Source: a virus. Taken from it: a stretch of 52,821 nucleotides of DNA. A program made the translations under genes and the position numbers. Of the stretch, positions 124-52,821 are shown in pieces. Every line of letters starts with the position of its first letter. Position 1 is the stretch's first letter. Under the pieces are notes generated by a model. It worked only from the letters and a program-made list of their open reading frames with translations, did not search any database and was not told the origin of the DNA. The stretch covers positions 1 through 52,821 of IMG/VR virus record IMGVR_UViG_3300010397_000052. One strand, written 5' to 3'.

Positions 124-403
124 CCATCTCCGGACCACGGGCTTTTGGATGGCTCCGATGATCATGAACATGTACCCGTTCAAGGTCACGCGGCCAGAGC
201 AACGCTACCCTGCAGAGCACGGAGCCAACTGTATTACGGAATGGGCCAGAGCTCAGGGTTACCCCGCAATCATGGCTACCTGGGAGGCTGAGTCAGAGTG
301 GCCAAATTGGGATGGGATGCCGGGAGGTTTTCACCGCGAACAGCAACAAGGCTTGCTTGTTGGCGATCGGTTAACTGCTCCGCCCTACTATCCGCACCCA
401 TGA
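1..403 (+). CDS. Glycosyltransferase-like protein, 3' part (gene starts at 52418)
   Basis: This is the C-terminal part of a 227-residue protein whose start is ATG 52418 at the other end of the window. The frame is preserved exactly when 52698 is joined to 1. The protein is a tandem paralogue of the gene just before it (51717-52421): both carry an NxNPxG stretch, an NGG turn and a D-[IL]-G-[GA]-[YF] motif (HDLGAF here). The pattern is like small GT-A-type glycosyltransferases, but I see no classical DXD, so the activity is inferred. The stop TGA (401-403) overlaps the ATG at 400 of the HNH gene, which points to coupled translation. Confidence 0.75.
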   Translation, partial: SAYLRRPQWLSRMAEVFHKYGSAAIYGSTANCGDARVNVFPHLRTTGFWMAPMIMNMYPFKVTRPEQRYPAEHGANCITEWARAQGYPAIMATWEAESEWPNWDGMPGGFHREQQQGLLVGDRLTAPPYYPHP

Positions 404-3206: not shown

Positions 3207-3209
3207 ACC

Positions 3210-4496
3210 GTGTACACCATTCACAATCGCTGCCGTGCCTGCAACTTTGGCCCTCCTATTCTCCCTGGCGGAACAAAAGCCGGAGCCAACGCCGATCGCC
3301 TCCTGCCTGCTTTCAGCCTTGGGGTTCAGCCACTCGCTAACGATTTCTGCCAGGACGCAGAGGAGCGAGCCGGTTTTGCGCCGCTCGAGATTCTTCTCTG
3401 CCCTCAATGCGGTTTGGCGCAGTTGAGCGTAGTTGTCGACCCTGGGATCCTTTACGCCAAGGATTATCCCTACGTAACCAGCAAGAGTGACACCATGCGG
3501 CAACATTTTGAGCTCTTGTGGAATGACTGCAGCGCGCAAGCCTCCTGCAAAACCGTCCTCGAGATTGGCAGCAATGACGGCGATTTCTTGAATTACTGTC
3601 GCAGCCACGGCGCAGAAGCTGTGATCGGTATCGAGCCGGCATCAAATCTGGCGGCAGCGGCCGAAAAGCAGGGCATCCGGACGATCCGCGATTTCTTCAA
3701 CCCCGTCTCAGCCGCGATGGCGAGCCAAGCGATGCCCAAAGTGGGGATGATCTTTGCCCGTCACGTCTTTTGCCACGTACCAGACTGGCAAGCCTTCATG
3801 GCCAACTTGCAACTCCTGGCTGGGCCAGAGACGCTGATTTGTATCGAGGTGCCTTACGTGATGGATCAACTCAAGGCGATTAGTTTTGACCAGATTTATC
3901 ACGAGCACTGCAGCTATCTCTCCATCCGAGCGATCAAAGCCCTGCTCAACGGCGGCCCATTCTGCCTCAAGGATCTCAAGCACTACACCATTCACGGCGG
4001 CGCGATTCTGCTCATGATCCAGCGCCGGAGCCCTGAGATAAAGGCCAGCCAAACGGTCCTCGAGTACCTTGACGCGGAGAGCGCCACTCAAAAAAGCTGG
4101 CAGGAATTTGCGGAGAAAAGCTCCGACGCGATCGAGAAGCTCAAAGGCTTGATCAAACAACTGCGCAAAGAAGGAAAGCGCGTTGTGGGCTTTGGAGCTT
4201 CCGCCAAGAGCACCGTTTGGATTAACGCCATGGGGCTCTCCCGCGCTGATCTGTCCTGCGTCTACGATTGCACTCCTTCAAAGTGGTATCGGTACATTCC
4301 CGGCACGGATATCCCGATCGTCAACCAGGGCGGCTTTTACGTCGACGATCCGGAGTATGCCGTCATCTTCGCTTGGAATTTCGCGCAGGAAATAATGGAT
4401 AAGAACCGAAAATGGATGGAGGGCGGCGGCTCCTTCATTGTCCCCATCCCTGAGGCGAAAATCTATCGCGCTGAGGCTTGCTCCTGCAGCGTTTAG
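3210..4496 (+). CDS. Zinc-binding sugar C-methyltransferase family protein
   Basis: The 428-residue protein has the three-part architecture of sugar C-methyltransferases such as TylC3 and NovU. An N-terminal zinc-binding domain carries C8, C11, C64 and C67; a SAM domain has motif VLEIGSNDGDF (116-126); the C-terminal domain contains VVGFGASAKST (about 324-334). The region around YHEHCSY is typical of the family. The family normally adds a methyl group to C3 of an NDP-4-keto-deoxysugar. The start is GTG 3210, three bases after the previous stop. It is the last gene of the modification cassette before the portal. No sugar-nucleotide dehydratase or epimerase is present, so the substrate must come from the host. 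Confidence 0.9.
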   Translation: MYTIHNRCRACNFGPPILPGGTKAGANADRLLPAFSLGVQPLANDFCQDAEERAGFAPLEILLCPQCGLAQLSVVVDPGILYAKDYPYVTSKSDTMRQHFELLWNDCSAQASCKTVLEIGSNDGDFLNYCRSHGAEAVIGIEPASNLAAAAEKQGIRTIRDFFNPVSAAMASQAMPKVGMIFARHVFCHVPDWQAFMANLQLLAGPETLICIEVPYVMDQLKAISFDQIYHEHCSYLSIRAIKALLNGGPFCLKDLKHYTIHGGAILLMIQRRSPEIKASQTVLEYLDAESATQKSWQEFAEKSSDAIEKLKGLIKQLRKEGKRVVGFGASAKSTVWINAMGLSRADLSCVYDCTPSKWYRYIPGTDIPIVNQGGFYVDDPEYAVIFAWNFAQEIMDKNRKWMEGGGSFIVPIPEAKIYRAEACSCSV

Positions 4497-4503
4497 TCTT
4501 GCA

Positions 4504-4544
4504 GTGCTCACCGCAAGGGTTTATTGCCCACGGTGAATGAGCAC
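4504..4544 (+). promoter_or_regulatory. Hairpin holding the portal start codon in a bulge
   Basis: GTGCT (4504-4508) pairs with AGCAC (4540-4544), and CACCG (4509-4513) pairs with CGGTG (4531-4535). An inner GGG (4517-4519) can pair with CCC (4527-4529). The only interruption on the right arm is AATG (4536-4539), which contains the portal ATG at 4537. As RNA this would place the start codon in a bulge and could limit initiation. The pairing is directly visible; the regulatory role is inferred. Confidence 0.5.
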
Positions 4545-9482: not shown

Positions 9483-11030
9483 ATGGCACTCAGTTGCAAA
9501 CAGTTCACGGATTACCTGAGCCGGAAGTCCGAACACCTTGACGATAATATCATCCTTTCGATGCACCCGATCGACACTTGGATCGGGCACGTTTCGATCG
9601 GCCGCTTTGCGGCAGAGGATGGCGTTGAACACACTTTCGATCGTTTCGAGAATGTTTTCCCTGATCTCCGCGGAGCCTGGGAGGACGTTTCGGCCGGCAG
9701 TTGCATTGGCCAGCCTTGCGACCCGTCGACCACAAAGATCGGCTTGGGCTTCACCCGAGACAGCTACAAGCTGCAGCGCAAGTCCTACGAAACTGATCTC
9801 TTCTGTTTCGACCAGATTCTTTCCGCCGATCGCGCCAAACAGCAGTTTGCCCACGTCATCAGGGTTAACCGGCGCGCCTCTTCGCTGATCACCTCGCACC
9901 GGTTCCGGACGGAGGCGATTCGCATCGCCAAATACAAATGGGCGACGGCCAACAATACGCTGGTTCCCATTACTGCGACCTGGGATAGCACCATGACCTT
10001 TTTGACGGTTTCAACTTTGCCAACCAGCAAGATCACCGCTCGCCACCTGCAACGGCGCGTCCAGCCTCAGATCCGCGAAGGCGCGCTCTCTGAGGACATC
10101 AATCGTTCCGTTCAACCCATGCTCGAGTTTGTAACCGATATGGATGAAGTCTGGAACATGGTTGAGGGCAACCCCGAGCTAACCGATCACTGGCGCTTCA
10201 CGGACTTTGCTGACGCTGAGAAGTACCACAAATACGGATGGGTTGGGAAGCTGGGCAACTATGGTTTGCGCGCTGATTGGACTTCGCTCCGGTTCAACGT
10301 GTATTCGCAGAATGCGGACGGCACTACGACCCTGCAGATCGTCTACCCGTACACCAATGTTTCGGCCACGGAAGGCATTAAAGAAGTTGTGAATAACGAC
10401 TACGATAACGCCTATATCCAAGTCGACTTCATTTGGCACCGCAAAGCGATGACGTCCATGGTGCAGGACACCACGTCGATCAATCCGGAGATGCCTTTCG
10501 CCATGCGCGACTTTGCCGGAAAGTGGCAATTCGTGATGGATAACCTTACCTGTGGCACGGACGTAAACGGCAACCCGATCGCCGTGAACAACGAGCGCCG
10601 CAACAAGGGCAAATTCATCGCTGATTGGCGCTTTGCCACTCAGGCGGAATATCCTGAGCTCGCAGAAGCATTTTTCCACCTGCGCGAGCCGGCTTGCGTT
10701 GTGGACGTGCCCACCTGTAGCAGCGGCTCATACCCTGCGCAGAGCTACTCGAGCGCAAATGCTACCTGCCCCTCGAGCTCTACGGTCCTCACCTTTACGC
10801 CAGTGGCCAGCGGCTCCGGCGACTATGATATTCCGCAGGATTCGATCCTGTGCAACGGGTTGAACATATTCAATCCGCGCATCTACGGCGTAAGCACCCT
10901 GGCGCTGCTCGTTGCCTCGCTAAACACCAATCTCTCAGCAATGGGAACTTGGGCTGTCGCCAGCGCGACTACGATCACCCTCACCGGGGCGGTTTGCACC
11001 TCCGTCAATATCCCCTGGACGGTTGACTAA
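9483..11030 (+). CDS. Major capsid protein candidate
   Basis: The 515-residue protein lies where the major capsid protein is expected, after portal, scaffold and a co-chaperonin. Its long A/T-rich leader, strong hairpin downstream and large globular composition without membrane segments fit an abundant shell protein. The central part (QVDFIWHRKAM to WQFVMDNL) is mixed alpha/beta as in HK97-fold subunits. The last 110 residues are Ser/Thr-rich and beta-like (SSTVLTFTPVASGSG) with several cysteines and could be an added surface domain. I see no N-terminal delta-domain cleavage site. A decoration or other head protein is the main alternative. Confidence 0.75.
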   Translation: MALSCKQFTDYLSRKSEHLDDNIILSMHPIDTWIGHVSIGRFAAEDGVEHTFDRFENVFPDLRGAWEDVSAGSCIGQPCDPSTTKIGLGFTRDSYKLQRKSYETDLFCFDQILSADRAKQQFAHVIRVNRRASSLITSHRFRTEAIRIAKYKWATANNTLVPITATWDSTMTFLTVSTLPTSKITARHLQRRVQPQIREGALSEDINRSVQPMLEFVTDMDEVWNMVEGNPELTDHWRFTDFADAEKYHKYGWVGKLGNYGLRADWTSLRFNVYSQNADGTTTLQIVYPYTNVSATEGIKEVVNNDYDNAYIQVDFIWHRKAMTSMVQDTTSINPEMPFAMRDFAGKWQFVMDNLTCGTDVNGNPIAVNNERRNKGKFIADWRFATQAEYPELAEAFFHLREPACVVDVPTCSSGSYPAQSYSSANATCPSSSTVLTFTPVASGSGDYDIPQDSILCNGLNIFNPRIYGVSTLALLVASLNTNLSAMGTWAVASATTITLTGAVCTSVNIPWTVD

Positions 11031-18363: not shown

Positions 18364-20343
18364 ATGCCGATCATCCCCTGTCAGACTAAGATTACCTGTG
18401 AAGGGATCGACACCCCGTTTAGTAATTTCTCCTCTGAAGCTCCGGACCTGTTCGATTTCCGCGCCTTTGCCTGGACGTTTTGGAATCCCAACTTTCCCCT
18501 GCCACCGGATTTGACCGGCCGGGATACTGGCGATCTGCCGATTTATTGGGCGGAGGGCTGCCAAACGGTTTGTGTCTCGCTCACCTCGCAGGAGGAGGCA
18601 AACGTCTGTGCGCGCAGGCAGTCTTACCTCTGCGGCCGGAGCAACGAGGGCGGAGATGGAGTGATACCGGCGCTCTTTTCCAATGCGGCTCAGACTTGCT
18701 CAGCCATTTGCGCCAGCGGCGCGCCTTTCAGTTACACGGTTCCGGCCGGATGGTTTACGACAACCTCTCAGAGCCTCTCTGATCAGATTGCCAGGACTTA
18801 CGCGTGCGCGATCGCCAATGCGCAGATGATCTGTCTCTCGAACCTGTCCCAAGGGTGTCGAAACGTGGCGTATGCGGAGTTTATTGCGGTCACCAGGGGC
18901 ACGGGCCCTTTTGTTTTCACCCTGATCGGAGGCACGCTGCCGCCTGGGCTAACGCTGGCGCAGTTCGATTCAACGAGCGCCCTGCTCTCCGGCACTCCGA
19001 CAACGGCCGGCAACTTCACTTTTCAGGTTAGAGCGCGCAACTCTTCCGGCCAGCAAACGGCCAGGACTTACACGGTGGCGATCCTGGGAATCACAAACTT
19101 TGCCTCTGCGCCAACGGTCACGAAGGGATCCGCTTACAGTTTCCAGCTTGCAGCCAGTGGCGGCACACCTCCGTATGTGTTCAGTGTGGCGGCCGGAGCG
19201 CTCCCTGCAGGGCTCACTCTGAGCGCGACTGGCCTTATTTCGGGCACGCCGACAACGGCGGGTACCAGTAGCTTTGTTTTGGAGATTCACGACGCAACTA
19301 CAGGCGGCGCTCGCTGCCAGTTGGTGGCGTCGCTGGTGACGCAAAATAACGCAGTCTGCCCAACCGTCCTGACAAGCTTCGCAGTGGGCTCCGGCCGCCT
19401 TGCTGCTTATGCGCCGCTCACCGGGGAGATCCTTCATCCCAACAAGATTTACGCGACGGACAATACCGCGAATCAGTTCAGATACTATGACGCTGATAGC
19501 GTGACGCTTTTAGGCACGATACCTTTCGGAGGCGTAGGCTGGTCACCTCAGAGCGCGGCCTATGCTCCTGGCACGGATAAGCTCTTCATGACCGTCGACG
19601 ATTTTGGGCTTGGCTCTTGGTATATCCAGATCGTAAACACTGCAACAAACGTCCTGGGCGCAACCATCGTTGACGGCGCGAGCGGCGCTTTGTTTGGCTA
19701 TTACGGGATGCGATATGTGAGCCCCCTTAGCAAAGTACTCATGCTGGGCAGCAGTGGCGGGAGCGCAGACACAGACGCTTTGGAGCTCAATCCCGCAACC
19801 AACGCTTTTACCCGATTTTCGGTAACGGTTGCCCCTGGCGGCCCATCCATTGAGATCGCTACGGAGCTCGATTACTGCCCTGATAATGGCCGGTACTATG
19901 TGGGCACGTACGTTAATGACAACCTGCGCAGCTTTCTCCGGAGCTTCAATGCCACAACCCATGTTCAGCAATCGGCAGTAGATTTCGGCACTGATCGGAT
20001 CGTGGGCGTTTGCTGGATAGCAGATGTTACCCGCCTGTACGTTTTCACCCGCAACACCGGCAGCGGCCTTGCAAAAGTTCACGTCTACAACGTGACTACG
20101 GACACGGTTGAAACGGTGATCAGCCTGGGAAATTTCTCGCTCTCAACCTCCTCCCGTTACTGGCCTAACAAGGGCGTTTTGGCTCTGCCCTGCGGCGACA
20201 CAAAGATCCATTTCGTTGATCCAGTTGCCAATACTGAGCTCTGCTCTCTGGCTCAAACTACCAACGTCGATTCTTTCGCCATTGCCGGGGATAACCTCTG
20301 GATCTCAGGATTTGGCGCTGCAGCGATGAACGTCTATCACTGA
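18364..20343 (+). CDS. Adhesin-like protein with putative Ig domains and a propeller
   Basis: The 659-residue protein has an N-terminal 150-residue Cys-rich region (CQTVC, CARRQSYLC, CSAIC). Two putative Ig (He_PIG-type) domains follow, at about 179-240 and 267-320, each with LPxGLTL and SGTPTTAG. The last 320 residues show repeated strands with turns like APGTDKLFM, CPDNGRYYVG and WPNKGVLAL, resembling a YVTN/NHL-type beta-propeller. Such domains serve carbohydrate or surface binding. It probably sits on the tail or neck and contacts the host. The many cysteines suggest disulfides in the mature virion. The start is one base after the previous stop. Confidence 0.7.
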   Translation: MPIIPCQTKITCEGIDTPFSNFSSEAPDLFDFRAFAWTFWNPNFPLPPDLTGRDTGDLPIYWAEGCQTVCVSLTSQEEANVCARRQSYLCGRSNEGGDGVIPALFSNAAQTCSAICASGAPFSYTVPAGWFTTTSQSLSDQIARTYACAIANAQMICLSNLSQGCRNVAYAEFIAVTRGTGPFVFTLIGGTLPPGLTLAQFDSTSALLSGTPTTAGNFTFQVRARNSSGQQTARTYTVAILGITNFASAPTVTKGSAYSFQLAASGGTPPYVFSVAAGALPAGLTLSATGLISGTPTTAGTSSFVLEIHDATTGGARCQLVASLVTQNNAVCPTVLTSFAVGSGRLAAYAPLTGEILHPNKIYATDNTANQFRYYDADSVTLLGTIPFGGVGWSPQSAAYAPGTDKLFMTVDDFGLGSWYIQIVNTATNVLGATIVDGASGALFGYYGMRYVSPLSKVLMLGSSGGSADTDALELNPATNAFTRFSVTVAPGGPSIEIATELDYCPDNGRYYVGTYVNDNLRSFLRSFNATTHVQQSAVDFGTDRIVGVCWIADVTRLYVFTRNTGSGLAKVHVYNVTTDTVETVISLGNFSLSTSSRYWPNKGVLALPCGDTKIHFVDPVANTELCSLAQTTNVDSFAIAGDNLWISGFGAAAMNVYH

Positions 20344-22474: not shown

Positions 22475-23302
22475 ATGGACGAAGAAAACGAGCAGGATTT
22501 ACCCGATTACTCTCCGGAGGAGGGTCAAGATGAACGAGAGCCGGCGATGTTGCCCACGCCTGCTCCCGCCCCCGCGGCTGCTCAACTAAGCGCGCCTGTC
22601 ATAGCGCGAGCGGCCGCCCCTTCTCCGATTGCCCCGGGCGGCGCTGGCACTGCTGTGTACTCCCCCGAGCAGCAGGCTAGCGCCGCTTTCTGGCGCAAGA
22701 TGAATTATGAGTTGCAGGGGCAACCCCTGGCAGAGGCTGAGCAAGCGCTTTCGGCCGCGCTCAAGTTTCAGGCGATCCGCGGATATCAAAAGGATCTGGA
22801 AAACGGCAAGAGCCCCGGCGAGGCGCTCTCGCGCTGGGCCCCAATGATGTTCACGGCTCCAAAGTCCTCAAACCTGGGCAACGCGGCATCGATGGTGCGC
22901 GCTACCCGTGCGCCTGCGCCCATGGTCCGGACGGCCGGAGGGCAGATTTTTCAGATTCCGCCAGGAGGTGGCGCAGCAACGGCCCTGACTCCGGCTCCGG
23001 TTCGCCCTCCGCGCACGGATCCTTTCGCCCTCGCAGAGTTTGAGCTCAAGCTTAAGCAGATTGAGAAGCTGCAAGCGGATCTCGATGTAGAACCGGCCGG
23101 CAAAGGCCGCCAAGATATTTTGAAGCGGATCGACGTAGCTCAGCGCGAGGCAGCGGCTCTCCGCCCAAGCCCTGCAGCTACGGCTCCAACTGCTCCGGCC
23201 GCTCCTGCAGGCGGAGGGAATGAAGTGTTACGGTTGACAAAGAGCGGCCGAAAGGCTGTCTTTGACTCCGCAACAAAGAAATTCCTCCGTTATGCCCAAT
23301 GA
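22475..23302 (+). CDS. Internal virion protein candidate, Ala/Pro-rich
   Basis: The 275-residue protein opens with an acidic stretch (DEENEQDLPDYSPEE), followed by an Ala/Pro linker, a compact helical domain (ASAAFWRKMNYELQ to ALSRWAPMMF), another Pro-rich linker and a coiled-coil segment (FALAEFELKLKQIEKLQADL). It closes with a basic LRLTKSGRKAVFD end. No catalytic residues are apparent. Its stop lies inside the start of the giant gene (11-base overlap), so the two are probably made together. Confidence 0.6.
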   Translation: MDEENEQDLPDYSPEEGQDEREPAMLPTPAPAPAAAQLSAPVIARAAAPSPIAPGGAGTAVYSPEQQASAAFWRKMNYELQGQPLAEAEQALSAALKFQAIRGYQKDLENGKSPGEALSRWAPMMFTAPKSSNLGNAASMVRATRAPAPMVRTAGGQIFQIPPGGGAATALTPAPVRPPRTDPFALAEFELKLKQIEKLQADLDVEPAGKGRQDILKRIDVAQREAAALRPSPAATAPTAPAAPAGGGNEVLRLTKSGRKAVFDSATKKFLRYAQ

Positions 23303-26300
23303 TACGCCTCCGACCTGGGAAGAAACTCAAGAGCTTGCCGATACTGCGCCGCCCTCCTGGGAGGATACCTCTGAGTACGTAGAGCCCCCCGCTCCGCTCC
23401 GGCCGCAACGGGTTCGCTCTGCCATAAACCAGACGATTCAAGCGGTTTATCGGCCGCTCGATCTGCTCACAAATCCGGCCGTAGTCGCCGGTTCACAGAT
23501 GGGCCAGGAGCGCGCCAAGCGAGCCAGGGAGGCGCAGATGGGTGTAGTTGCTCCCGGCTCTTTCTTCCCCGTCCCTCAGCCGCTCGCAGAGCCCACTCCG
23601 GAGGACAAAGCTGCCGGAATGGATTTGGTGCGATCGATTACTTCCGTGCCTGGGCGAGTACTGGCAGCCGGAGCTCGCACCGTGCGCGACGTGCTTAGCC
23701 CTTCAACTTACCTGCCGGAGGATATGAAAGCGCCTCCGCCTTTTGTGATTAACACTCGAGGCGAGCAGCCGGAGCTCCGCCAGATGACGCGAGCGGAAGA
23801 GGCAGCGCGGGATCCCCTGCAGGGCCCTCGAGCGCTCATCCCGGTTCGAGGCACGCAGCTTGAGCCGGAGGGGAGCGAAGGCGCACAACTGCTCTCAGGA
23901 CTGAGCACGCCGGACAATATCGGGATCATCGCGGCCGGAGGTGCAAGCAAGATTGCCGGCATGGCGCTGCTCTTCAGCATGGCCCCCGGCATCTATGAGG
24001 ACGTGAAGCGGATCGCCTCGAGTGATGTTTCCCTCGAGCAGAAACGCCAATCGATCAACAATTTGCTGATCCCTCTTGTCCTGGGAGCGAAAGGCGCTTA
24101 CGAGCGGCCGATCCCTGAGGCTCCTCAGGTTTCGGGCCCTCCGGCATTGGGTTCGATGCTGCAGATACCGGAGGGAGCGCGGCCGCCAGTGGCGAGAGCG
24201 GCCGAACTGGTAGGGCCGCCTGTGCCCGGGCGTGCTAAGTTCTTGCGGCCGGAGGTTCCTGGCACGGCCGCGGAGCCGTATGAGACGGCACTTGCGACCA
24301 TTCGAAAGGCCAATGCCAGGACTCGAAAGCAGATTCAAGCGCTATTCCCTGAGCGGCGCTTGAAAAACGAGGAGGCTGCAGATCTCCGTGATGCTGCTTG
24401 GGGTGCACAACCTCAGCCAGAGCCTCCGGCTGCTCCTCCCAAATGGGAGCAAACAGAGCCCGTCACGCGTACGCCAGAAGATCGCGCAGCGATGGGGCAC
24501 GCGCAGGAAATTGACGCGGCCGCCGAAAGGCAAGCCAGCCCGACTCAAGAGCCTCCGCTCCCTGAGGAGCCAACCGGTACAACTGTGCCCAACCCTCCGG
24601 CTCCGCCCACGCCTGCCGGAGAGGGCGCTGTAAAAAGTGTGCCCACGCCTCCGGCTGACGTCGATTACACCGATCTCGAGCAGGCAAACAAACTCAGCGG
24701 CCAGGAACTGGTTGATCTGGTTCGCAGCAAAGGCTCCGGAATAACGGAGGCATCCTATGAGTTGGGCGCAAAGCTCACGCCTGAAACCAGGGCCAAAGCG
24801 CGCCAGTACGAAGAGGCTGCCAATGCCGAAACAATGGCTGTGCTCCAAGAGGCTCAGAAACTGGCACCTCGCAGCCTCGAGCGGCTCAAAGCCTCTGAGG
24901 GCGCTTTCGCAATGCAGCAAAAGAAGCAGCTTTTCAATGAGGCTGGCCGGTTCTATGACGCAATACAGGACGTCAAGAACGGTAAGGATCTCGCGCAGGC
25001 TGCAGTTGAGCATGGAGTAAAGGAAACGGACCTGCGCAGGGTGGCAGAAGCGGCTCCGGCTGAGGCGGCCGCGACGCTCGCGCCCAAGCCAGGAATGACG
25101 CGGCTCTATCACGGTGAAGGAGCCGCGGAGGGCGCTGGCGCTGGCGGAGGTTGGTTTACGGAAAATCCGGAGTACGCGGCGCAGTTCGGAAAAGTTACTT
25201 TTGTCGACGTGCCCAAAGAGGTTGCCGATGCGGCGCGCCAAGCGGCTCGAAATACCGGTACTGGAGGCCCTCATTTCATCCTCCCTGATGAATACGTAAA
25301 GCAGGCTCAGCCAATGGCGACGCAGCCAGGGCCCAAGACGTTTGACGTTACTCCGGAAGAGCCGCCCAAGCCCAACGCTTACAAGGTGGAATTTTTGCAC
25401 AGCAGCGGGGAATGGTTACCAGAGATCACTCCCTCAACTCTCGCAGAGGCGCGCAAAGAAGCAGCGCGGCGCTTTAAAAGTGGCGTACAGATTTGGCGCA
25501 TCCGGCCATATTACGGAGAAATTTCCGAGAGCTCCGGCCCGATGGGCTCAGAGCGAGTCATTAAAAGGGCGATCGAAAACCCTCCAGAGGACACTAGCGA
25601 ACAACTCGCAGCACAAAAGTCAGACTTTCAAGAGCAGCTTAAAAAGACTGAGGGCATTCTAGCCAAAGCCAAGCGGGAGGGTTACTCAGGTGAAGCCATC
25701 AAGCATTGGGAGGATCACGCCGCCAAACTCCGTGAGCTCATCGGGGAGGAGACGGCTCCGGTTGTGGAAACTCCGGCCGCTCCGGCTGGCCCTGATCCGC
25801 TCGATAGGGTTACGCTCGCCATGCTGCCACTCAAGCAGTGGATGAAGGTAACCAAAACTGATCAGCTTCCAACGGGTTACGAGTTTACCATGATGGCAAA
25901 GCGCCTGGGAGTGAAGCGCGATCGCAAAGCTGTCCTCGAGGCACTCCACAACGAGAAACGCCTGCGCGAAATCTTCAAGCCTTTCGAGCAACCCAAAGCG
26001 GCCGCTCCGGCTGAAGAGCTCCCTAAGCATCAAACCGTACGGGATGAGCAGCCAGAGAAACAGACTCAGGGCAACTATGTGGCGGAATGGCTGCAAAAAT
26101 ATCCCGAGGGTACCAAGCTGCCCAATGGTTTGATCTCAACTGAGCAATTCTGGAAAGAGGCTCACCATGACACGATCGAAAACATTCTGAGAGGCAGGCT
26201 CACCGGGATAAAGGCGAGCGCTGTTTCGCCGCAGGCTCTGCAGTCCTACCCTGATCTTTTGGCTCTCGCGAAAAAGAAAGGCGTGTCCATTCCTGCTCCC

Positions 26301-29300
26301 TCAACTGAGGTGCCAAAAATGGACAAGGCGGAGTTTGAGGCTGCCAGGGATGCCTATAGCGCGGATAAGTTTCCGACGATCCGAAAGCCATTTGCGAAAA
26401 ACGGGAAGCTTTACACGGTTGGATCGGTTTCTGGCCCTGCCGGTAAAGGTGTTATCGAGGCTCACGAATTGACGGAAGTTGCTCCGGAAACGCCCATAAC
26501 AAAGAAAGACTTTTCGACTGGAAAGCGAGGCTATGAGGGCGAGGTAGTCTCGTACAAAGGCAAGAAATACAAGCTGGGCCCAATGGAAACTTTCGAGGAG
26601 GCTCCGGCTGAAGCTTCCACCAAAGTTGTAGGACCGGAAACGAAACCGGCTGAGCCTGAGGCGACTCCGGTGCAAGCGGCCGAAAAAGAGCTTTACGACG
26701 CTGATCAGTTCACCTCGCAGGCTGCCTCCGCCGCGGAGAAAGCAACTGTTGCCTGGGCAACTCATGTTGAGGACGTCGTAAAACCTCTCAAAGAGAAGAT
26801 CCGCCAGATACAGGCGGAAGTCTCGCGCATGGAGTATGACGCGAACCGCACCAAAATAACCGGCAAGAATAAGCTCACCAAAAAGGCATTCCTCGAGCTT
26901 CACGGAGTTGCTTCCATCGATGAGGCTCAGGCTCTCTACAAAAAGAAGAATGCCGATTGGGCAGATCTCGAGAAGCAACTCGAGGAGGCAGAGGCGAAAC
27001 GCAAAGAGCTCGAGGCTGCCAAAGAGCGCCGCTCTAAAGAATGGTCTGCAGCGGCAACCCGAGCAGGCGAACTGCGCCGCAAGGTCTATCCGGACGTGAA
27101 GCAAGGCGACGTTGGCGGCCAGCCTCTCGGCCCTGAGGCGATCGGCCCTGGCTCCGCAGCGCGTCTCGAGTTTGAGGGCCCTGAGTTTGAGCCTCCGGAT
27201 CCTGGCGCTATTGGGCTCAGTGCTGGTTCCCCGTTCTACAACCGGCTCAAGGCTAAGTATCAGCACTTTTACCAGGGCATCAGCCAGCTATTCAAGCGCA
27301 GCGCTGACAAACAAATCCTGATGCAACTGGCCAATGCGGCTGACAATCTGCCGCGCCTCGCTGGGCATCGCGCCGGCCAAGGTATCAGGGAGCGCACCTC
27401 CGCCCCTGATCGCAGCGCCCTTACCTTTGTCATGCAGGCGCTCAAAATGTCCGGAGAGGGGCTCTCTGCCGAATCTGCGGAGCGCCTGGGAGAGCTCGAG
27501 TTTGCCGGGGATCCTGGCGCTTACCTGCGCACCAAGGCAACCGATATGGAAACCCTGGCGCAGCAGTTTCTCCATGAGGGCAAAAAGCTCAATGCGGAGG
27601 CTGCCATTGCGGCCGCTAAGGCGATGCGCTTTGCGATTCGCAACTTTGCGAGGCTCCGGCCGCTCGCGGATACCGTGCGCGCTCAGTTCGATAAGCAGTT
27701 TGAGCGTGAGGGAAGAGCCGGAATCTCAACCGACTACGAGAATTGGCACGTACCGCAGCGGCATGACTTGGATCTGATGACGTCCTCAGACCGGCCGATC
27801 GTCCTGGGCCATTCCCGCGCCGCCGGTACCGCAACCGGTTTCAAGAAAGCCAAGGTGTATGAGGATTACGCGACGGCGATCGAGAATGGGTTTGTGCCTC
27901 GCTCCCTCGATATCGCGGATCTGCTCGAGCACAGGGTTAACCAGGGAGAGCGCTTGGTGCAGCGTAAGGCGCTCTTTGACCGGCTCCGAGCCATGACAGA
28001 CCCTGTGGACGGTAAAAGCCTCGCGCAGCCTATCCCGCGGCGTAGCATACCCCGGCCGGATGGAACTGTTGACGTGCAAGAGCACATTCCCCTTGGGTAT
28101 CAGCCTTTCGAAGTGATTCCCGGGTACCGGATGGCTATCCATGAGGGCTACGGCCGGCTGATGCGCGCCTTAACAGGCACCTCTCAGCTTGCAGAATCGG
28201 CCGCCGTTGGCGCGCTGCAGGACATTGCCGGCATTGAAAAGCATATTTCCTTGGCTTTAGACACCTTTCACGCCTCGAGGACCATGCAGGCGGAGCTCTC
28301 GCTCACCGGCAAACTCTCCGTTGGCGCTCGCCAGCGCCTGGGCAGAGCCCTTGTCGAATACAATCTTGGCGACCTGCAGGCGGCCGTAAGTAACGGTTCC
28401 ATAACGCAGGAAATGGCCGATTACATCAAAACTCCCCGCCCAATCGAGGTTGGCGGCCGTACGATAAGGTTATCGCCTCACGCCTTGGTCCAACTTGGTG
28501 CCAGGGAGGGCTTGAATCTGGCGCGCTTTAACGATGCCCTTTACCGGGATTGGATCCGCGAGTTTCCCGTGAGCGGCAAGGTGAATAAATGGGTGTTCGA
28601 CAAGCTGACTCGCTCCGCGATCACTCACGGCTTTCTTGCTGAGTTTGAGAGGGTTGCGAAGCAAAACCCGCAACTCAATGCGACGCAGGTAGCGCGCAAG
28701 GTGGCGAGTGACGTCAATGTGCTCTTTGGCAACCTGCAGAAAGAGAGCATTTTCCGCAATCCATCGGTTAAATCCATCCTGCAAGTCCTATTCCTGGCTC
28801 CGAATTGGGTTGAGGCGCTGGTACGCCGGGAGGGGAGGGCCCTGAAACAGGTTGCGGAAATCCCCGTGCAAATCGCAAAGGGGCAACCTGTCCATTTTGG
28901 CACCGCCGCCAAGGGCATCGGCTCAGGACTGGCCGCTTACTTCGTTGGCACTCAGTTGCTGAACCTGATCACCCGGGGACACCTCACTTTCAGCAACGAG
29001 GAGAAAGGCCACAAGTTGGATGCCTGGATCCCCGACGTCACGGGCAAAACCAAGGGCTATTTCATCTCGCCGCTCTCAGTATTCGGAGAGGTAACCCATG
29101 ATATCCTTAGGTACGCCAGGGAGAAACCGGACCTATGGGCGGCCGTCAACCAGATCGGCTCAAACAAAATGGGCAACCTGGGCAGGCTCCTCGAGGTGAT
29201 GATCTCCGGCCGGGATCCGGCCAATAACGAAAAGCTCATCGGTACTGGCAGGCGCGCAATCACGGCCGCAACCCAACTCGTACCGGTACCGATCTCCCTC

Positions 29301-29795
29301 TCACAAGCCGGGAGGGCAGTGGGCTCGAAAGTGCTCCCGGGAGTCATCCCTCCGGCCGCTCCTGGCAGTGTTCAGCGCCAGATAGTGGCCAGCGCTGGCT
29401 TTAAGACTGAGCCGGCCGGGACTGCGCAGCGCCAGATTTACGCTCTGGCTGATGAATGGAAGAGTAAGAGCTCGAGCGCAAAGCTGCGTGCTGAAGTTGA
29501 GCGCCGGTTGAAAGAGGACTTTGGGCCCTCCGATTACGCGGATCTCCGCGGCGCTCTCCTGCGTGATGACCTGGGAGCGGCGCGCAGAGCTTTCGATGAG
29601 CTCCGGAAAACCAAAGAGGCACAGGTAATTAACCGCGCTCTGCGGCATCCTCACCCCTTCACCGGGAGCGCCGCCAGCGAGCGGAGCTTTATCCGATCGC
29701 TCTCCGACCATGACAAAGCGCTGTATAAAGAGGCGCTCGAGGAGAGGAAACAGCTTTACAGCCGGTACCGGCAGATGCTTAATCGGCCGGAGTAA
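23292..29795 (+). CDS. Giant internal virion / polyvalent protein (2167 residues)
   Basis: This is the largest gene of the window. The N-terminus has repeats of the form PPxWExT (PPTWEET, PPSWEDT, later PPKWEQT). A segment at about 602-672 (TRLYHGEG, GGWFTENPEYAAQFG, FVDVPKEV, HFILPDEY) resembles ADP-ribosyltransferase-like domains of phage polyvalent proteins. Coiled-coil and small beta domains follow. The final 700 residues hold ENWHVPQRHD, long helices and one hydrophobic stretch near 1874 (GIGSGLAAYFVGTQLL). Such giants are packaged in the head and ejected with the DNA, carrying channel-forming and anti-host domains. ATG 23292 is chosen over TTG 23262. The ART-like call is tentative. Confidence 0.72.
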   Translation: MPNDTPPTWEETQELADTAPPSWEDTSEYVEPPAPLRPQRVRSAINQTIQAVYRPLDLLTNPAVVAGSQMGQERAKRAREAQMGVVAPGSFFPVPQPLAEPTPEDKAAGMDLVRSITSVPGRVLAAGARTVRDVLSPSTYLPEDMKAPPPFVINTRGEQPELRQMTRAEEAARDPLQGPRALIPVRGTQLEPEGSEGAQLLSGLSTPDNIGIIAAGGASKIAGMALLFSMAPGIYEDVKRIASSDVSLEQKRQSINNLLIPLVLGAKGAYERPIPEAPQVSGPPALGSMLQIPEGARPPVARAAELVGPPVPGRAKFLRPEVPGTAAEPYETALATIRKANARTRKQIQALFPERRLKNEEAADLRDAAWGAQPQPEPPAAPPKWEQTEPVTRTPEDRAAMGHAQEIDAAAERQASPTQEPPLPEEPTGTTVPNPPAPPTPAGEGAVKSVPTPPADVDYTDLEQANKLSGQELVDLVRSKGSGITEASYELGAKLTPETRAKARQYEEAANAETMAVLQEAQKLAPRSLERLKASEGAFAMQQKKQLFNEAGRFYDAIQDVKNGKDLAQAAVEHGVKETDLRRVAEAAPAEAAATLAPKPGMTRLYHGEGAAEGAGAGGGWFTENPEYAAQFGKVTFVDVPKEVADAARQAARNTGTGGPHFILPDEYVKQAQPMATQPGPKTFDVTPEEPPKPNAYKVEFLHSSGEWLPEITPSTLAEARKEAARRFKSGVQIWRIRPYYGEISESSGPMGSERVIKRAIENPPEDTSEQLAAQKSDFQEQLKKTEGILAKAKREGYSGEAIKHWEDHAAKLRELIGEETAPVVETPAAPAGPDPLDRVTLAMLPLKQWMKVTKTDQLPTGYEFTMMAKRLGVKRDRKAVLEALHNEKRLREIFKPFEQPKAAAPAEELPKHQTVRDEQPEKQTQGNYVAEWLQKYPEGTKLPNGLISTEQFWKEAHHDTIENILRGRLTGIKASAVSPQALQSYPDLLALAKKKGVSIPAPSTEVPKMDKAEFEAARDAYSADKFPTIRKPFAKNGKLYTVGSVSGPAGKGVIEAHELTEVAPETPITKKDFSTGKRGYEGEVVSYKGKKYKLGPMETFEEAPAEASTKVVGPETKPAEPEATPVQAAEKELYDADQFTSQAASAAEKATVAWATHVEDVVKPLKEKIRQIQAEVSRMEYDANRTKITGKNKLTKKAFLELHGVASIDEAQALYKKKNADWADLEKQLEEAEAKRKELEAAKERRSKEWSAAATRAGELRRKVYPDVKQGDVGGQPLGPEAIGPGSAARLEFEGPEFEPPDPGAIGLSAGSPFYNRLKAKYQHFYQGISQLFKRSADKQILMQLANAADNLPRLAGHRAGQGIRERTSAPDRSALTFVMQALKMSGEGLSAESAERLGELEFAGDPGAYLRTKATDMETLAQQFLHEGKKLNAEAAIAAAKAMRFAIRNFARLRPLADTVRAQFDKQFEREGRAGISTDYENWHVPQRHDLDLMTSSDRPIVLGHSRAAGTATGFKKAKVYEDYATAIENGFVPRSLDIADLLEHRVNQGERLVQRKALFDRLRAMTDPVDGKSLAQPIPRRSIPRPDGTVDVQEHIPLGYQPFEVIPGYRMAIHEGYGRLMRALTGTSQLAESAAVGALQDIAGIEKHISLALDTFHASRTMQAELSLTGKLSVGARQRLGRALVEYNLGDLQAAVSNGSITQEMADYIKTPRPIEVGGRTIRLSPHALVQLGAREGLNLARFNDALYRDWIREFPVSGKVNKWVFDKLTRSAITHGFLAEFERVAKQNPQLNATQVARKVASDVNVLFGNLQKESIFRNPSVKSILQVLFLAPNWVEALVRREGRALKQVAEIPVQIAKGQPVHFGTAAKGIGSGLAAYFVGTQLLNLITRGHLTFSNEEKGHKLDAWIPDVTGKTKGYFISPLSVFGEVTHDILRYAREKPDLWAAVNQIGSNKMGNLGRLLEVMISGRDPANNEKLIGTGRRAITAATQLVPVPISLSQAGRAVGSKVLPGVIPPAAPGSVQRQIVASAGFKTEPAGTAQRQIYALADEWKSKSSSAKLRAEVERRLKEDFGPSDYADLRGALLRDDLGAARRAFDELRKTKEAQVINRALRHPHPFTGSAASERSFIRSLSDHDKALYKEALEERKQLYSRYRQMLNRPE

Positions 29796-46597: not shown

Positions 46598-47167
46598 TTA
46601 TCGGCGTCGATCCGGAGGCACAAAAGGCAAGCCAACAAATTTGAAAATGTCCTCCTCGCTATAGACTGGCCAATGCTGGCGCTCCCTGGAATTTACAAAC
46701 CCAGATCCATACGCCTCGAGGTTCCAGCCTTTCCTTTTGGCCAGGGTCGCAACCTTGATATTCAGCATTTTCGGGCCAGTCCTGATAAAGAGCGTCATAA
46801 ACCAGTTGCTCTCAGTCGTGAAAAAGAAATCGACGGGGATCCCGCTATTGGTGTGCACAGCCAGCTTATTTTTCTCTCCCCACATTTCGCTTCCGGACGA
46901 ATTACGCCGCCTCCAAAGCGTGCTCCATTGGATCATTCGATCGAGCTCCTTGGCGGTGTGATCAACGGCGGTTTTCTTGTCCCCGAACAGATCGTCATCG
47001 CGAAGCTCGATCTTAGGGATGATCACAAACTCGATATCGGAAACGAATCTCAAGCCGCGGCGCAGGGAGCCAGCAACCTTGAGGCGCATAGCGTGAGGCT
47101 GCAGCGCCGTGTAGAGCTCCTTTGCCACCTCGAGCGCTGTCTCGCGAGGGAACTTGCCTTTGCTCAT
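46598..47167 (-). CDS. PolX-like nucleotidyltransferase
   Basis: The 189-residue protein has the Pol-beta nucleotidyltransferase signature: GS (33-34) in VAGSLRRG, the metal pair D44 and E46 in SDIEF, and the third acidic residue D113 in GIPVDFFF. The region WFMTLFIRTGPKMLNIKVATLAKRKGW ... YGSGF parallels the thumb of bacterial PolX. It lacks the 8-kDa lyase, helix-hairpin-helix and PHP domains, so it is a minimal version. It may fill short gaps in repair or recombination; transfer to another substrate is not excluded. It overlaps the upstream gene by four bases. Confidence 0.8.
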   Translation of the reverse strand: MSKGKFPRETALEVAKELYTALQPHAMRLKVAGSLRRGLRFVSDIEFVIIPKIELRDDDLFGDKKTAVDHTAKELDRMIQWSTLWRRRNSSGSEMWGEKNKLAVHTNSGIPVDFFFTTESNWFMTLFIRTGPKMLNIKVATLAKRKGWNLEAYGSGFVNSRERQHWPVYSEEDIFKFVGLPFVPPDRRR

Positions 47168-48751: not shown

Positions 48752-50551
48752 ATGATTAAATACGGGCTTTCCTGGCCAGATAACTACACAGCCGTAAACG
48801 TGGAAATCGATATGATCCGCGCTGGCGGCAAGATTGAGCGCGGCGGCAAGAGCTACGGCGAGGGGCTCTTTCATCATTACCGGTGCATGTTCAATCTGCT
48901 CTGGCCGGAGGATGATCATCACCGTTGGAGTGATCTCTGCCTCAAGCGCAAGACCGAGCATGAGATCGTGATCATGATGGGCAGCGGCGACTCCAATAAA
49001 ACCTACATCAGTTCCAAATACGTCCTCTGCAATTGGTGGGTTCTTCCATTCAATACCCTCTGGATCATTTCGAGCACAGAGTTGCGCGGCGCAGAGCTCC
49101 GGAATTGGGGCGCAATCAAAGGGCTTTTCAATCGTGCTCGAGAGCGGTTCCCATGGCTGCCGGGAGTGGTCCTCGAGTCAAAGACGTGCATAACTCCCGA
49201 CGTCATCTCAGAGGGTGGCGTTGCTGGGCGGCTCCTCACCAAAGGGATCATCTTTGTCCCCTGCAAAAAGGGCGGCCAATGGGTGGGCATGGGCGCTTAT
49301 GCCGGCGTGAAACCGCCCAAGGGCGGCCGCCTGGGCCATTTCGGGGATGAGGTGAGCTTCATGCATCCCAATTTCCTCAATGCTTACGCGAATTGGTACG
49401 GGAAAAACTTTGAGGCGATTTTGGACGGCAACCCTACGGACCTTGACGATCCGTTGTGCACGGCCGCAAAACCGATCGGCGGCTGGGAGGCGTGGAAAGA
49501 CAACGGCAAAACGCAGGAATGGTTAAGCACCTTTTACAATGCTTGGGTGATCGCTTTGGATGGGCGCGACTCACCCAACATGGATCAACCCAAGAACCTG
49601 CCGCCTCGCTACCCCTATCTCATTCACTGGAAAAAGCATGAGGCAGTCCTCCGGCTCCATGGTCCGGACCATCCCCTTTACTGGCAGCAATGCGTAGGCA
49701 AGCCGCTCCCCGGCACGGAGAAATTCAGAATCATCCCGCACTCCCTGCCAGAGACAAGCGGCGCGTACGATCAGGTTGTATGGGAAGGATCGGACATAAC
49801 CGATATTGTCTCGCTGGATGCCGCTTACGGTGGCGAGGGTGGCGATCGCTGTATTCTCACGCACTTGCGTTTCGGCCGCGATATCGAGGGGCGCGACGTG
49901 ATCGAGGTGAAAGCTCAGCCAACCGTCCCCGTCGCAGTTCAGACCGGAGGCGATCGAGTTGAAAAGCAGATCGCCAAATTCTGTAGATCCTATTGCGAGG
50001 GTTACAAGATCCCTCCCTCGAGCTTCTACTTCGACGGCCGGTCAACCCTGGCAGTTACCTTTGCTCAGGTGTGGTCTGCGGAAGTCAATGTGGTGGACTT
50101 CGGAGGGCCAGCCACCAAGCGGCCGGTTTCGCAGGATGAATTTGTTATCGACAAGGACACAGGCGAAAAGCGGCTCAAACGCTGCGATGAGCATTACTCC
50201 AAATTCGTTACGGAGCTTTGGTTTTCCATCTACTACCTGATGATCGGCCGGCAGATTCGCAACCTGCCAAAGGATTGCGCCACGGAGCTCCGGAGGCGGA
50301 TCTGGCGTTTGGTTTCCAAGAGCCGAATTGAGGCAGAGACAAAGAAGGAAATGAAAGAGCGCCTCACGGAGAGCCCTGATATGGCTGATTCGCTGGTGAC
50401 GGGTGTTGAGGGAGCGAGGCGGCAAGGTTTCCTGATCGCAATCCTCAAAGATGTAACGGCGCAAAAGCAGGAGGATGACGATTGGCTCGAACAAGAACTT
50501 GCTAAGCATCGGGAATTTATGCAAAAGACAGAGCTTAAGTCGCGAAAATGA
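48752..50551 (+). CDS. terL: Terminase large subunit
   Basis: The 599-residue protein shows the two-domain terminase motor. The Walker A loop is GSGDSNKT (77-84), with Asn in place of the usual Gly before Lys. Walker B ends with D199-E200 (GHFGDEVS). A coupling-type segment GNPTD follows. The RNaseH-like nuclease has D356 (VSLDAAYGGEGGD), D428 (YFDGRS) and D543/D546 (SPDMAD). It packages DNA through the portal and cuts it. No small subunit is recognised nearby. It starts the rightward late and modification block, and its stop overlaps the next ATG (ATGA). Confidence 0.9.
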   Translation: MIKYGLSWPDNYTAVNVEIDMIRAGGKIERGGKSYGEGLFHHYRCMFNLLWPEDDHHRWSDLCLKRKTEHEIVIMMGSGDSNKTYISSKYVLCNWWVLPFNTLWIISSTELRGAELRNWGAIKGLFNRARERFPWLPGVVLESKTCITPDVISEGGVAGRLLTKGIIFVPCKKGGQWVGMGAYAGVKPPKGGRLGHFGDEVSFMHPNFLNAYANWYGKNFEAILDGNPTDLDDPLCTAAKPIGGWEAWKDNGKTQEWLSTFYNAWVIALDGRDSPNMDQPKNLPPRYPYLIHWKKHEAVLRLHGPDHPLYWQQCVGKPLPGTEKFRIIPHSLPETSGAYDQVVWEGSDITDIVSLDAAYGGEGGDRCILTHLRFGRDIEGRDVIEVKAQPTVPVAVQTGGDRVEKQIAKFCRSYCEGYKIPPSSFYFDGRSTLAVTFAQVWSAEVNVVDFGGPATKRPVSQDEFVIDKDTGEKRLKRCDEHYSKFVTELWFSIYYLMIGRQIRNLPKDCATELRRRIWRLVSKSRIEAETKKEMKERLTESPDMADSLVTGVEGARRQGFLIAILKDVTAQKQEDDDWLEQELAKHREFMQKTELKSRK

Positions 50552-50733: not shown

Positions 50734-51039
50734 ATGGATCAACCTTTCTCTCGTAGCACGTTTCCAAATGGCGGCTGGCAATTCCTGCAGCCTCAAACCA
50801 TGTGGAAAGCTCCGACTCCGATCGCGAGCACCTTTACGCAGACTGTAGAGCTCATTATCAAGCATCGGATGAAAAATCCGGCGATCGTCGCGCAGCACGG
50901 GCTCTCCCTGGATCCGGTTGCAGTGGGCAACGAGCTCGAGGCTTACAATCTCCAGCGCCTGGGGCTGCAGTTACCTCCGGCGAGCCCATCGGCCGGACAA
51001 GTTGTCGTGCCTCTGGCAACCTCCTGCTGCGGTCACTGA
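50734..51039 (+). CDS. Small virion-region protein, first of a tandem pair
   Basis: The 101-residue protein shares its N-terminal two thirds with the next gene: FPNGGWQFLQ, a W-x-A-P string, I-I-x-H-R-x-x-N-P-A, and LDP-x-x-VGNELE. It lacks the Cys-rich C-terminal domain of the paralogue and ends with a short CCGH. The pair arose by duplication. The fold is not recognised. It lies between terminase and the glycosyltransferase-like genes. Confidence 0.68.
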   Translation: MDQPFSRSTFPNGGWQFLQPQTMWKAPTPIASTFTQTVELIIKHRMKNPAIVAQHGLSLDPVAVGNELEAYNLQRLGLQLPPASPSAGQVVVPLATSCCGH

Positions 51040-51042
51040 TTT

Positions 51043-51720
51043 ATGCAGACATTTAATCGATCAGTTTTCCCAAATGGCGGCTGGCAATTTTACCAGAGCC
51101 AAAGCAAATGGAGTGCGCCCAATCCCAAGGGCAATACTTTCGATCGGCAGGTGGCAGAGATTATCGAGCATCGGAAAAGAAATCCCGCGATGCTGATTCA
51201 GCACAAGCTTTCCATCGATCCGGCCGTAGTGGGCAACGAGCTCGAGAGCTTCAACCGTGCGCGCCTGGGCATCCCGGCGATCCAGCCAGCGCGCCAGGAG
51301 ATCCCCCCTCCGGAAAGCTCCCCGCTTCTTTCGGTACCGGTACGCGACGCGATTTCAGCCGTGAAAAAGATTGCGGCCGGAGCGGCGCTGCTCATGGAAT
51401 GGGAAGAGAGCGGCTTGCCTCCAGAGCCTGCAGCGGTTTCAGAATCCAGGGCGGCAATCTGCGCCGTCTGTCCCAAGAACGAAAAGGGCAAGAGCCTCAC
51501 GGAGCTCTTCACGGTCCCGGCCGCAAACCGGATCAAAGAGAAACTGAAGCGCTTGCATGAAATGGATCTCAAAACCTCGAAGGACGCGGAGCTAAACGTC
51601 TGCAGCGCCTGCCTTTGTCCCCTCAAGCTCAAGGTGCATACCCCTATGAGCCTGATCCAGAAACGTCTCAAACCGGAACAGCGCGCAGAGCTCGATCCCA
51701 AATGCTGGATCCTGGCGTGA
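51043..51720 (+). CDS. Zinc-like Cys protein, second of a tandem pair
   Basis: The 225-residue protein starts with the domain shared with the gene before it (FPNGGWQFYQ ... VGNELESFN). After a Pro linker it continues with a helical segment and a Cys domain: ICAVCPKNEKG, LFTVPAANRIKEKL, VCSACLCPLKLKVHTP, DPKCWIL. I associate this Cys domain with phage genes that stand beside glycosyltransferase-like genes; function unknown. At least six cysteines could bind zinc or an Fe-S cluster. The stop overlaps a GTG (51717) that starts the next gene. Confidence 0.72.
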   Translation: MQTFNRSVFPNGGWQFYQSQSKWSAPNPKGNTFDRQVAEIIEHRKRNPAMLIQHKLSIDPAVVGNELESFNRARLGIPAIQPARQEIPPPESSPLLSVPVRDAISAVKKIAAGAALLMEWEESGLPPEPAAVSESRAAICAVCPKNEKGKSLTELFTVPAANRIKEKLKRLHEMDLKTSKDAELNVCSACLCPLKLKVHTPMSLIQKRLKPEQRAELDPKCWILA

Positions 51721-52421
51721 TCCATGTTGTTTATATCGCGGTTTCTGGCGGCCCTCTCACTCACGATTACTGCGCTCGCTTCGTTGGGAGTTACCTCGCC
51801 AACCCTCCCGGCGCGACTAACCGCGTAATTGTGGTCTGCAACGGCGGCGCGCTCCCGCTCGAAACGCAGATGCTTTTCCTCCCGCTCAACGCCACCTTTC
51901 TCCTCCGCAGCAACGATCCGTCCTGGGATATCGGCGGTTACATGGACGCGGCGCTGCAGTTTCAGGGAAAGTTTCTCTTTTGCTGCGGCGAGACGGTTTA
52001 TTTTCACCGCGAGGGCTGGCTTGCCAGGATGGCTGAGGCTTGGGAGAAATACGGCAACGGTATGTATGGCTCTTTCTCGAGCAACCTTGTCCGGACGCAC
52101 CTCAACACAACAGCGTTTGCCTGTGATTCCGCCTCGCTCCTGAGCTACCCGCGGCCGATGAGTCGCGCTGATCGCTACAATTTCGAGCACGGCTCAGACG
52201 CGCTCTGGCGTCGACTTCATCAGCACGGCAAACCGGTTAAGCTGGTAACGTGGAACGGAGTTTGGGAGCCGGTTCACTGGCGCTTGCCCATGGATATCAT
52301 GTGGCGCGGCAATCAGAGTAACTGCCTGAGCTTCTGCTCGCATACTGATCGCTATCGCGCAGCCACTCCGGTGATTCAACGTCAATGGTCTGCCTGGGCT
52401 GATGGTCCTTACCGCTTATGA
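51717..52421 (+). CDS. Glycosyltransferase-like protein
   Basis: The 234-residue protein from GTG 51717 (GTGA overlap; ATG 51702 is an alternative) is a tandem paralogue of the next gene. Both have a first strand, a F-[VI]-x-x-Y-x-x-NP-x-G stretch, an NGG turn and a D-[IL]-G-[GA]-[YF] motif (WDIGGY, about 70-75). Then follow [LF]-F-[LC]-x-G, a W-L-x-RM-A-E helix and a YG segment. These features resemble small GT-A-type sugar transferases. Acceptor and donor are unknown, and no DXD is obvious. The stop overlaps the next ATG (ATGA). Confidence 0.72.
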   Translation: MIHVVYIAVSGGPLTHDYCARFVGSYLANPPGATNRVIVVCNGGALPLETQMLFLPLNATFLLRSNDPSWDIGGYMDAALQFQGKFLFCCGETVYFHREGWLARMAEAWEKYGNGMYGSFSSNLVRTHLNTTAFACDSASLLSYPRPMSRADRYNFEHGSDALWRRLHQHGKPVKLVTWNGVWEPVHWRLPMDIMWRGNQSNCLSFCSHTDRYRAATPVIQRQWSAWADGPYRL

Positions 52422-52821
52422 GAATCGCAGTCGTTTACATTTTCCCAGTTTTCGAGGGGGCGTTTTTCGATAACGCCTGCCGGTTCATCGCCACTTACAA
52501 CGAGAATCCAGCCGGGATGGAGCACCAGCTTATTTTTGTTTCCAACGGCGGCAAGCCAACCCTCGAAATGCGCGGCTTGGCGGAATCCTGCGCGCATCCG
52601 GTTGAATGGTTCGAGCACGATAACAGCGGCCACGATTTAGGCGCTTTCCAAGCGGCCGCTCGAGCGATCCCCTGTGATATGATGCTTTTTTTGGGAAGCA
52701 GCGCGTACCTGCGCCGGCCGCAGTGGCTCTCGAGGATGGCTGAGGTATTTCACAAATACGGGAGCGCGGCGATCTACGGCAGCACGGCCAACTGCGGCGA
52801 TGCCAGAGTGAATGTCTTTCC
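52418..52821 (+). CDS. Glycosyltransferase-like protein, 5' part (continues at 1-403)
   Basis: ATG 52418 overlaps the stop of the previous gene. The frame runs to the window end and continues in frame at position 1, for a total of 227 residues. This part holds the first strand (RIAVVYIFPVF), the NGG turn (42-44 region) and HDLGAF (72-77). See the entry at 1-403 for the C-terminal part. The gene is intact on the closed circle. Confidence 0.78.
   Translation, partial: MRIAVVYIFPVFEGAFFDNACRFIATYNENPAGMEHQLIFVSNGGKPTLEMRGLAESCAHPVEWFEHDNSGHDLGAFQAAARAIPCDMMLFLGSSAYLRRPQWLSRMAEVFHKYGSAAIYGSTANCGDARVNVF
52699..52821. repeat. Terminal direct repeat, right copy
   Basis: The last 123 bases equal the first 123 bases of the window. 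They lie inside one gene that stays in frame across the join, which argues for an assembly overlap of a circular or circularly permuted molecule. Confidence 0.97.

Follow-up and report, generated by a model that had tools for sequence, protein, structure and literature searches.

What would a phage do with a set of sugar enzymes placed between its terminase and portal genes, and on what would these enzymes act? The question is raised by a viral window of 52,821 nt (the whole stretch of DNA analysed here; IMG/VR record IMGVR_UViG_3300010397_000052, positions 1–52,821). The first and last 123 bases of the window are identical, and with this direct terminal repeat the contig is circular. Its ends split one glycosyltransferase (GT) gene, GT2, which on the circle is a single intact ORF of 227 aa. 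The cassette therefore continues, as an earlier note on this DNA had proposed, across the junction into positions 1–4496. The genes concerned are as follows.

48752–50551, plus strand: terminase large subunit (terL), the upstream flank; PHROG 2, E = 1.1e-8, in two of four aligned relatives
50734–51039, plus strand: short paralogue of the N-terminal part of the Cys-rich protein, 57.9% identical to residues 2–77 of 51043–51720
51043–51720, plus strand: Cys-rich protein (gpC), the left border of the glycan island, directly before the cassette in nearly all relatives
51717–52421, plus strand: GT1, predicted GT-A-fold glycosyltransferase with a GTG start; AlphaFold2 pLDDT 91.9
52418–52821 continuing at 1–403, plus strand: GT2, paralogue of GT1 (31% identical)
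400–852, plus strand: free-standing HNH endonuclease; PHROG 3377, E = 6.9e-48
842–1528, plus strand: GT3, predicted GT-A-fold nucleotide-sugar enzyme; AlphaFold2 pLDDT 90.2
1528–2589, plus strand: radical SAM enzyme (rSAM) with a twitch/SPASM-like C-terminal Cys set; Pfam Radical_SAM, 7.9e-9
2586–3206, plus strand: MycE/TylE-like sugar O-methyltransferase (O-MT), from profile matches
3210–4496, plus strand: predicted sugar 3-C-methyltransferase (C-MT); Methyltransf_13, 23 and 14, all three Pfam models above cut-off
4537–6891, plus strand: portal-position protein, the right flank, from size and position; relatives 34–98% identical
9483–11030: likely major capsid protein, from position

The PDB profile matches of terL are weak, every one of them to a large terminase or a 'Gene 2 protein', and a Walker-A-like motif (GSGDSNKT) was read by eye in its sequence. 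The portal label of 4537–6891 found no confirming match in any library searched. In an alignment of relatives, gpC has near-invariant cysteines (C140, C143, C187, C190, C192 and C221), which suggests a metal site, and the window and its closest relatives carry a second copy of its N-terminal part as a gene of its own. Elsewhere in the phage, the structural region holds a 2177-aa ORF (23262–29795) that has no match in Pfam or PHROGs and a protein with two He_PIG immunoglobulin-like domains (18364–20343; 2.3e-22), a candidate surface protein. On the minus strand, a 189-aa protein (46598–47167) matches the DNA polymerase beta thumb domain (3.9e-12), which is unusual in a phage. In five relatives, a conserved protein of about 430 aa is encoded just 3' of the portal-position gene (L009:9440–10735, L006:11492–12775, L010:11020–12312, L011:11793–13085 and L013:11433–12728); it was not seen in the window, and the L009 copy has no Pfam match. 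The terL, portal-position, GT2 and Cys-rich proteins have zero relatives in 50,697 phage records, so isolates give no clue to the host, and a scan of bacterial genomes found no prophage.

The Cys-rich gene, GT1, GT2, HNH, GT3, rSAM, O-MT, C-MT and the portal-position gene form a chain in one direction. Most cassette junctions are overlaps of a few bases (GTGA, ATGA, ATGA), GT3 and rSAM share one base, and the widest gap within the cassette is 3 nt. Three GT-like genes, a radical SAM enzyme and both methyltransferases, reported in the earlier note as one chain between terL and portal, are thus all present, overlapping or nearly abutting, the portal by position. The HNH gene between GT2 and GT3 had been missed there; it is not at the GT2/GT3 junction in the close relatives L003, L004, L005 and L009, and by this comparison it is apparently a mobile insert in the chain. 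The cassette genes are under purifying selection (dN/dS 0.06–0.18 against the nearest distinct relative), which, together with the same gene order and place in most relatives, argues that the chain is not due to chance.

Profile matches bear out the labels 'TylE-like' and 'zinc C-methyltransferase' that the two methyltransferases had been given. The C-MT profile matches D-mycarose 3-C-methyltransferase (4rv9, E = 1.3e-102) and TcaB9 (1e-84) over nearly the full length, and ten residues (C8, C11, C64, C67, Y82, Y86, H185, Y230, E232 and H233) are invariant in nine homologues. After TcaB9, we take the four cysteines to bind zinc, and the Tyr-x-Glu-His motif with the upstream His and Tyr residues to form the active site. 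The enzyme thus matches the TylC3/TcaB9 type in sequence, and methylation at C-3 of a sugar is predicted. The O-MT profile matches MycE (3ssm, E = 3.5e-26) and demethylmacrocin O-methyltransferase (8ia9, 3.9e-22) in a region that spans the metal-binding and catalytic core, where D128, D129, H132 and E157 of the IDDGSH...IED core are invariant. Its nearest relatives in isolated phages in some cases adjoin a GT gene, for example upstream of the terminase in McProf. In eight relatives of the window an RmlD-like reductase (SDR) is also encoded, with profile matches to 3,5-epimerase/4-reductase and UDP-L-rhamnose synthase; it co-occurs with C-MT in 8/8 cases and always precedes it (Fisher p 0.03, the phages not being independent). 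No dTDP-sugar synthesis genes are obvious in the phage, which must thus rely on the host for the dTDP-sugar.

As to the transfer of the sugar, structure prediction had been proposed as a check on the GT-like proteins, and GT1 and GT3 both come out as predicted GT-A folds. The best solved match of the GT1 model is the fucosyltransferase WrtF (E = 3e-7, Z 14.2, rmsd 3.0, 171 residues), and RmlT with TDP-rhamnose follows at Z 14.1; GT2 would have the same fold by homology to GT1. The GT3 model has its top Z score (13.4; rmsd 3.0, 167 residues) with heparosan synthase 2. The top Foldseek rows for GT3 are cytidylyltransferases of the same fold, so that the fold also fits sugar nucleotidyltransferases, and from its model GT3 is a probable glycosyltransferase. 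That GT3 is a further paralogue of GT1 and GT2 was rejected by hhalign (probability 1.2%). The GT1/2 and GT3 profiles gave no PDB sequence match, and the GT1/GT2 and GT3 alignments contain no invariant DxD motif. This metal-binding motif is common, not universal, in GT-A enzymes.

In the rSAM enzyme, the CX3CX2C motif (C41, C45, C48) is present in 13/13 aligned sequences, and C281-X14-G-X4-C301...C332-X2-C335 is kept in all 11 full-length close relatives, C281 being unaligned in the distant outlier L015. The auxiliary Cys motif of SPASM/twitch enzymes is CX9-15GX4C ... CX2C(X5CX3C); the CX5CX3C part and a Pfam SPASM match are both absent here, and the C-terminal cysteines may form an auxiliary iron-sulphur site that is twitch-like at most. 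In the bacterial genome scan its relatives were distant (27–36% identity). In L020, a goat-gut bacterial contig, the rSAM relative (36%) has a C-MT on one side and an O-MT on the other, both of the phage-cassette families, in a run of RmlC (dTDP-4-dehydrorhamnose 3,5-epimerase), NAD epimerase, C-MT, rSAM, O-MT, two GTs, an ABC transporter and a sugar nucleotidyltransferase. In L021 it lies beside a polysaccharide flippase and DegT aminotransferases, and in L022 beside TylF and other methyltransferases.

The distribution of the cassette was analysed in two sets of relatives. The first came from searches with rSAM, GT3 and C-MT and comprises 34 contigs with a complete interval from the Cys-rich to the portal-position gene; GT1/2-type genes occur in 32 of these, GT3 in 31, rSAM in 23, O-MT and C-MT in 22 each, and the RmlD-like SDR in 8. 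The second, unbiased set used the portal-position gene as seed and comprises 31 loci that extend 5 kb or more upstream. In 23 of them, two or more cassette genes lie upstream of the portal-position gene; among the remaining eight, one has C-MT alone and seven have no cassette gene. The idea that the conservation is an artefact of using cassette genes as bait was rejected, since it held in this portal-seeded search (23/31). Related phages thus keep the cassette in its place between terL and the portal-position gene, a conservation on which the earlier note had made its proposal depend. Six of the seven cassette-less loci were read, and all six hold other apparent sugar genes between the Cys-rich and portal-position genes: GT-like proteins with DUF5672 relatives in L183 and L201, methyltransferases related to the O-MT profile in L182, L186, L189 and L201, and a cytidylyltransferase gene in L183. 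The GT labels in L182–L201 come from sequence reading and from similarity to Pfam-tested relatives, and the L182 GT-like protein had no match in a PDB sequence search. Because the cassette-less loci hold these other sugar genes, the interval appears to be a glycan island in which the borders are constant and the content varies. It also takes insertions, as judged from HNH genes at differing junctions and from the DNA methyltransferase genes of L011, where two of them (one identified by Pfam, one by reading) lie between GT genes at 2259–4848; such genes are inside the cassette in L012 as well. Moreover, one large GT protein apparently replaces two small GTs in 9/10 single-GT12 cassettes versus 0/22 with two or more (Fisher 4e-7, from a hand count made after seeing the data, in phages that are not independent), which we regard as a lead only.

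The content of the island also changes among close relatives. Between the window and its nearest relative, L086, protein identity is 97–99% for terL, GT1, GT2, GT3, O-MT, C-MT and the portal-position protein versus 79% for rSAM, and dS is 0.81 for rSAM versus 0.15–0.32 for the others; such a divergent allele looks like the sign of a recent exchange of a single gene. L003 is a mosaic, with terL and GT1 of the window type (98%) and GT2, GT3 and O-MT of the L087 type (94, 99.6 and 98%). Since every cassette gene has a dN/dS below 0.2 in close comparison, the swapped alleles look functional. This gene exchange among phages suggests selection for a changing surface sugar. Somewhat short of even odds, we would go further and regard the terL–portal interval as a phage 'serotype locus', that is, an island of fixed position and polymorphic content, where enzymes that include a new sugar-acting radical SAM family make many different virion glycans, with reshuffling from phage to phage under diversifying selection.

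Taken as a whole, the enzyme families, conserved catalytic residues, conserved location and gene exchange seen here give good support to the proposal that a coordinated pathway makes and attaches an unusual methylated sugar. We consider, with a probability of about 60%, that this is a virion-glycosylation cassette in the structural module, which makes and attaches an O- and/or C-methylated deoxysugar, most likely on virion proteins, an acceptor that we infer. C-MT would methylate C-3 of a nucleotide sugar supplied by the host, most probably dTDP-4-keto-6-deoxyglucose or something closely related; the 4-keto group would then be reduced by the RmlD-like reductase in some relatives and by the host elsewhere. 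The rSAM enzyme may alter the sugar further by radical chemistry, for example by epimerising or dehydrogenating it, both of these being guesses from the analogy of BtrN and enzymes like it. GT1, GT2 and GT3 would assemble a short glycan on an acceptor in the cytoplasm, for which newly made capsid or tail proteins are the likeliest candidates. MycE-type enzymes methylate the sugar once it is attached, and the O-MT would presumably act after transfer, in a step order that is itself presumed. No transmembrane segment is predicted in the cassette proteins (no hydropathy peak of at least 1.6 over 19 residues). This predicted absence of membrane proteins and the position within the structural module point to an acceptor in the cytoplasm that is produced together with the cassette enzymes, as capsid and tail proteins would be. 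Of the two targets between which the earlier note had not decided, the virion is thus favoured over the host surface. In the likely major capsid protein of the window, residues 406–445 are 40% Ser/Thr; the stretch is poorly conserved among relatives and is only suggestive of a glycosylation patch.

The cassette could instead decorate the host cell surface (O-antigen, capsule or another surface glycan) during infection and so shut out superinfecting phages or alter receptors. Among bacterial loci, the nearest gene arrangements (L020 and L021) are of the surface-polysaccharide type with a flippase or ABC transporter, and the bacterial rSAM relatives examined sit in loci of this type. However, neither a flippase nor a GT of the undecaprenyl-linked GtrB-like or membrane type is encoded in the cassette, its proteins lack transmembrane segments, and the cassette is placed in the structural module, not near an early or lysogeny region; no integrase was found among the ORFs scanned, although most of the phage genes match no family. 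The Gtr serotype-conversion cassettes of temperate phages, which are likewise phage-encoded glycosylation systems, act via the membrane proteins GtrA, GtrB and Gtr, and membrane proteins of this type are absent here. A host-surface target is in our judgement unlikely. A separate role for rSAM, in which it would modify a peptide (RiPP-like or in protein maturation) beside an unrelated sugar module, we regard as improbable. It is similar in sequence to SPASM peptide and metalloenzyme maturases, its nearest named families being remote, and it is absent from 11/34 cassettes. On the other side, the C-MT, rSAM and O-MT trio recurs in the bacterial dTDP-sugar locus L020, the relatives in L021 and L022 are found among sugar aminotransferases, a flippase, TylF and other methyltransferases, and no precursor peptide gene was noticed; from these contexts a sugar or glycan is a much likelier rSAM substrate than a peptide. 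The least likely target, and a very improbable one, is phage DNA hypermodified with a glycan against restriction: phage GTs can put diverse glycans on DNA, as PMC12619734 states in citing Pyle et al. 2024, and DNA methyltransferase genes occur inside the cassettes of L011 and L012, but MycE/TylC3-type enzymes belong to sugar pathways, and the main ORFs scanned include no thymidylate synthase-like hydroxymethylase or other base-priming enzyme, a weak point since most genes match no family.

Virion glycosylation, the reading that we prefer, has precedents, and the claim that this kind of system is undescribed finds no support beside them. In Corndog and Cluster O mycobacteriophages, an O-methyltransferase and three GTs are encoded between portal and protease, and capsid modification was proposed (PMC4351075); enzymes of the Corndog type are reported to modify capsid and tail tube in a passage of PMC11600133 that cites Freeman et al. 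2023. The likeness lies in an O-methyltransferase and three tandem GT genes in a virion structural operon adjoining the portal gene, and the window accordingly has the Corndog-type gene content of several GTs and a methyltransferase inside the virion structural module. In contrast, the Corndog set lies between portal and protease whereas the present one lies between terL and portal, and the papers, so far as their descriptions go, list no radical SAM enzyme, sugar C-methyltransferase or RmlD-like reductase. In the chlorovirus PBCV-1, the GT-A and methyltransferase domains of A064R/A061L, encoded by the virus, make the methylated rhamnose end of the capsid glycan (PMC9614988); that, however, is a eukaryotic virus with fused domains and an N-glycan, and its set has no C-methyltransferase or rSAM. 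The branched-deoxysugar pathways of antibiotics (TylC3/TcaB9 and MycE/TylE) hold clear sequence relatives of C-MT and O-MT with the same catalytic residues, but they serve antibiotic tailoring in bacteria and have no phage structural context. In the isolated Synechococcus phage DSL-LC02 (OR032571), a C-MT relative (22% identity) has GDP-mannose dehydratase, GDP-fucose synthase and many GTs as its neighbours, although this phage is of another group, has no annotated rSAM and does not carry the genes at the terL–portal junction. Thus, the present system is best described as a variant of phage virion glycosylation, to which a sugar C-methyltransferase/reductase arm, a conserved rSAM and the behaviour of a polymorphic island are added. 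Similar coats are known from a few phages, but this gene set and this swapping locus are not.

Up to now, reports of sugars on the phage surface have come from a few mycobacteriophages, with hints from other phages. In the present group, the window and dozens of relatives known from environmental DNA only carry a swappable block of sugar genes inside their particle-assembly genes. A locus devoted to such sugars, with fast swapping of its genes, is maintained by this whole group of uncultivated phages, and its branched-sugar and radical chemistry is otherwise met mainly in antibiotics and bacterial envelopes. The locus would also be a source of new sugar enzymes, above all of the radical SAM family that it has in common with bacterial polysaccharide loci. 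If the glycan is on the virion, it could affect the stability of the particle, its adsorption and its recognition.
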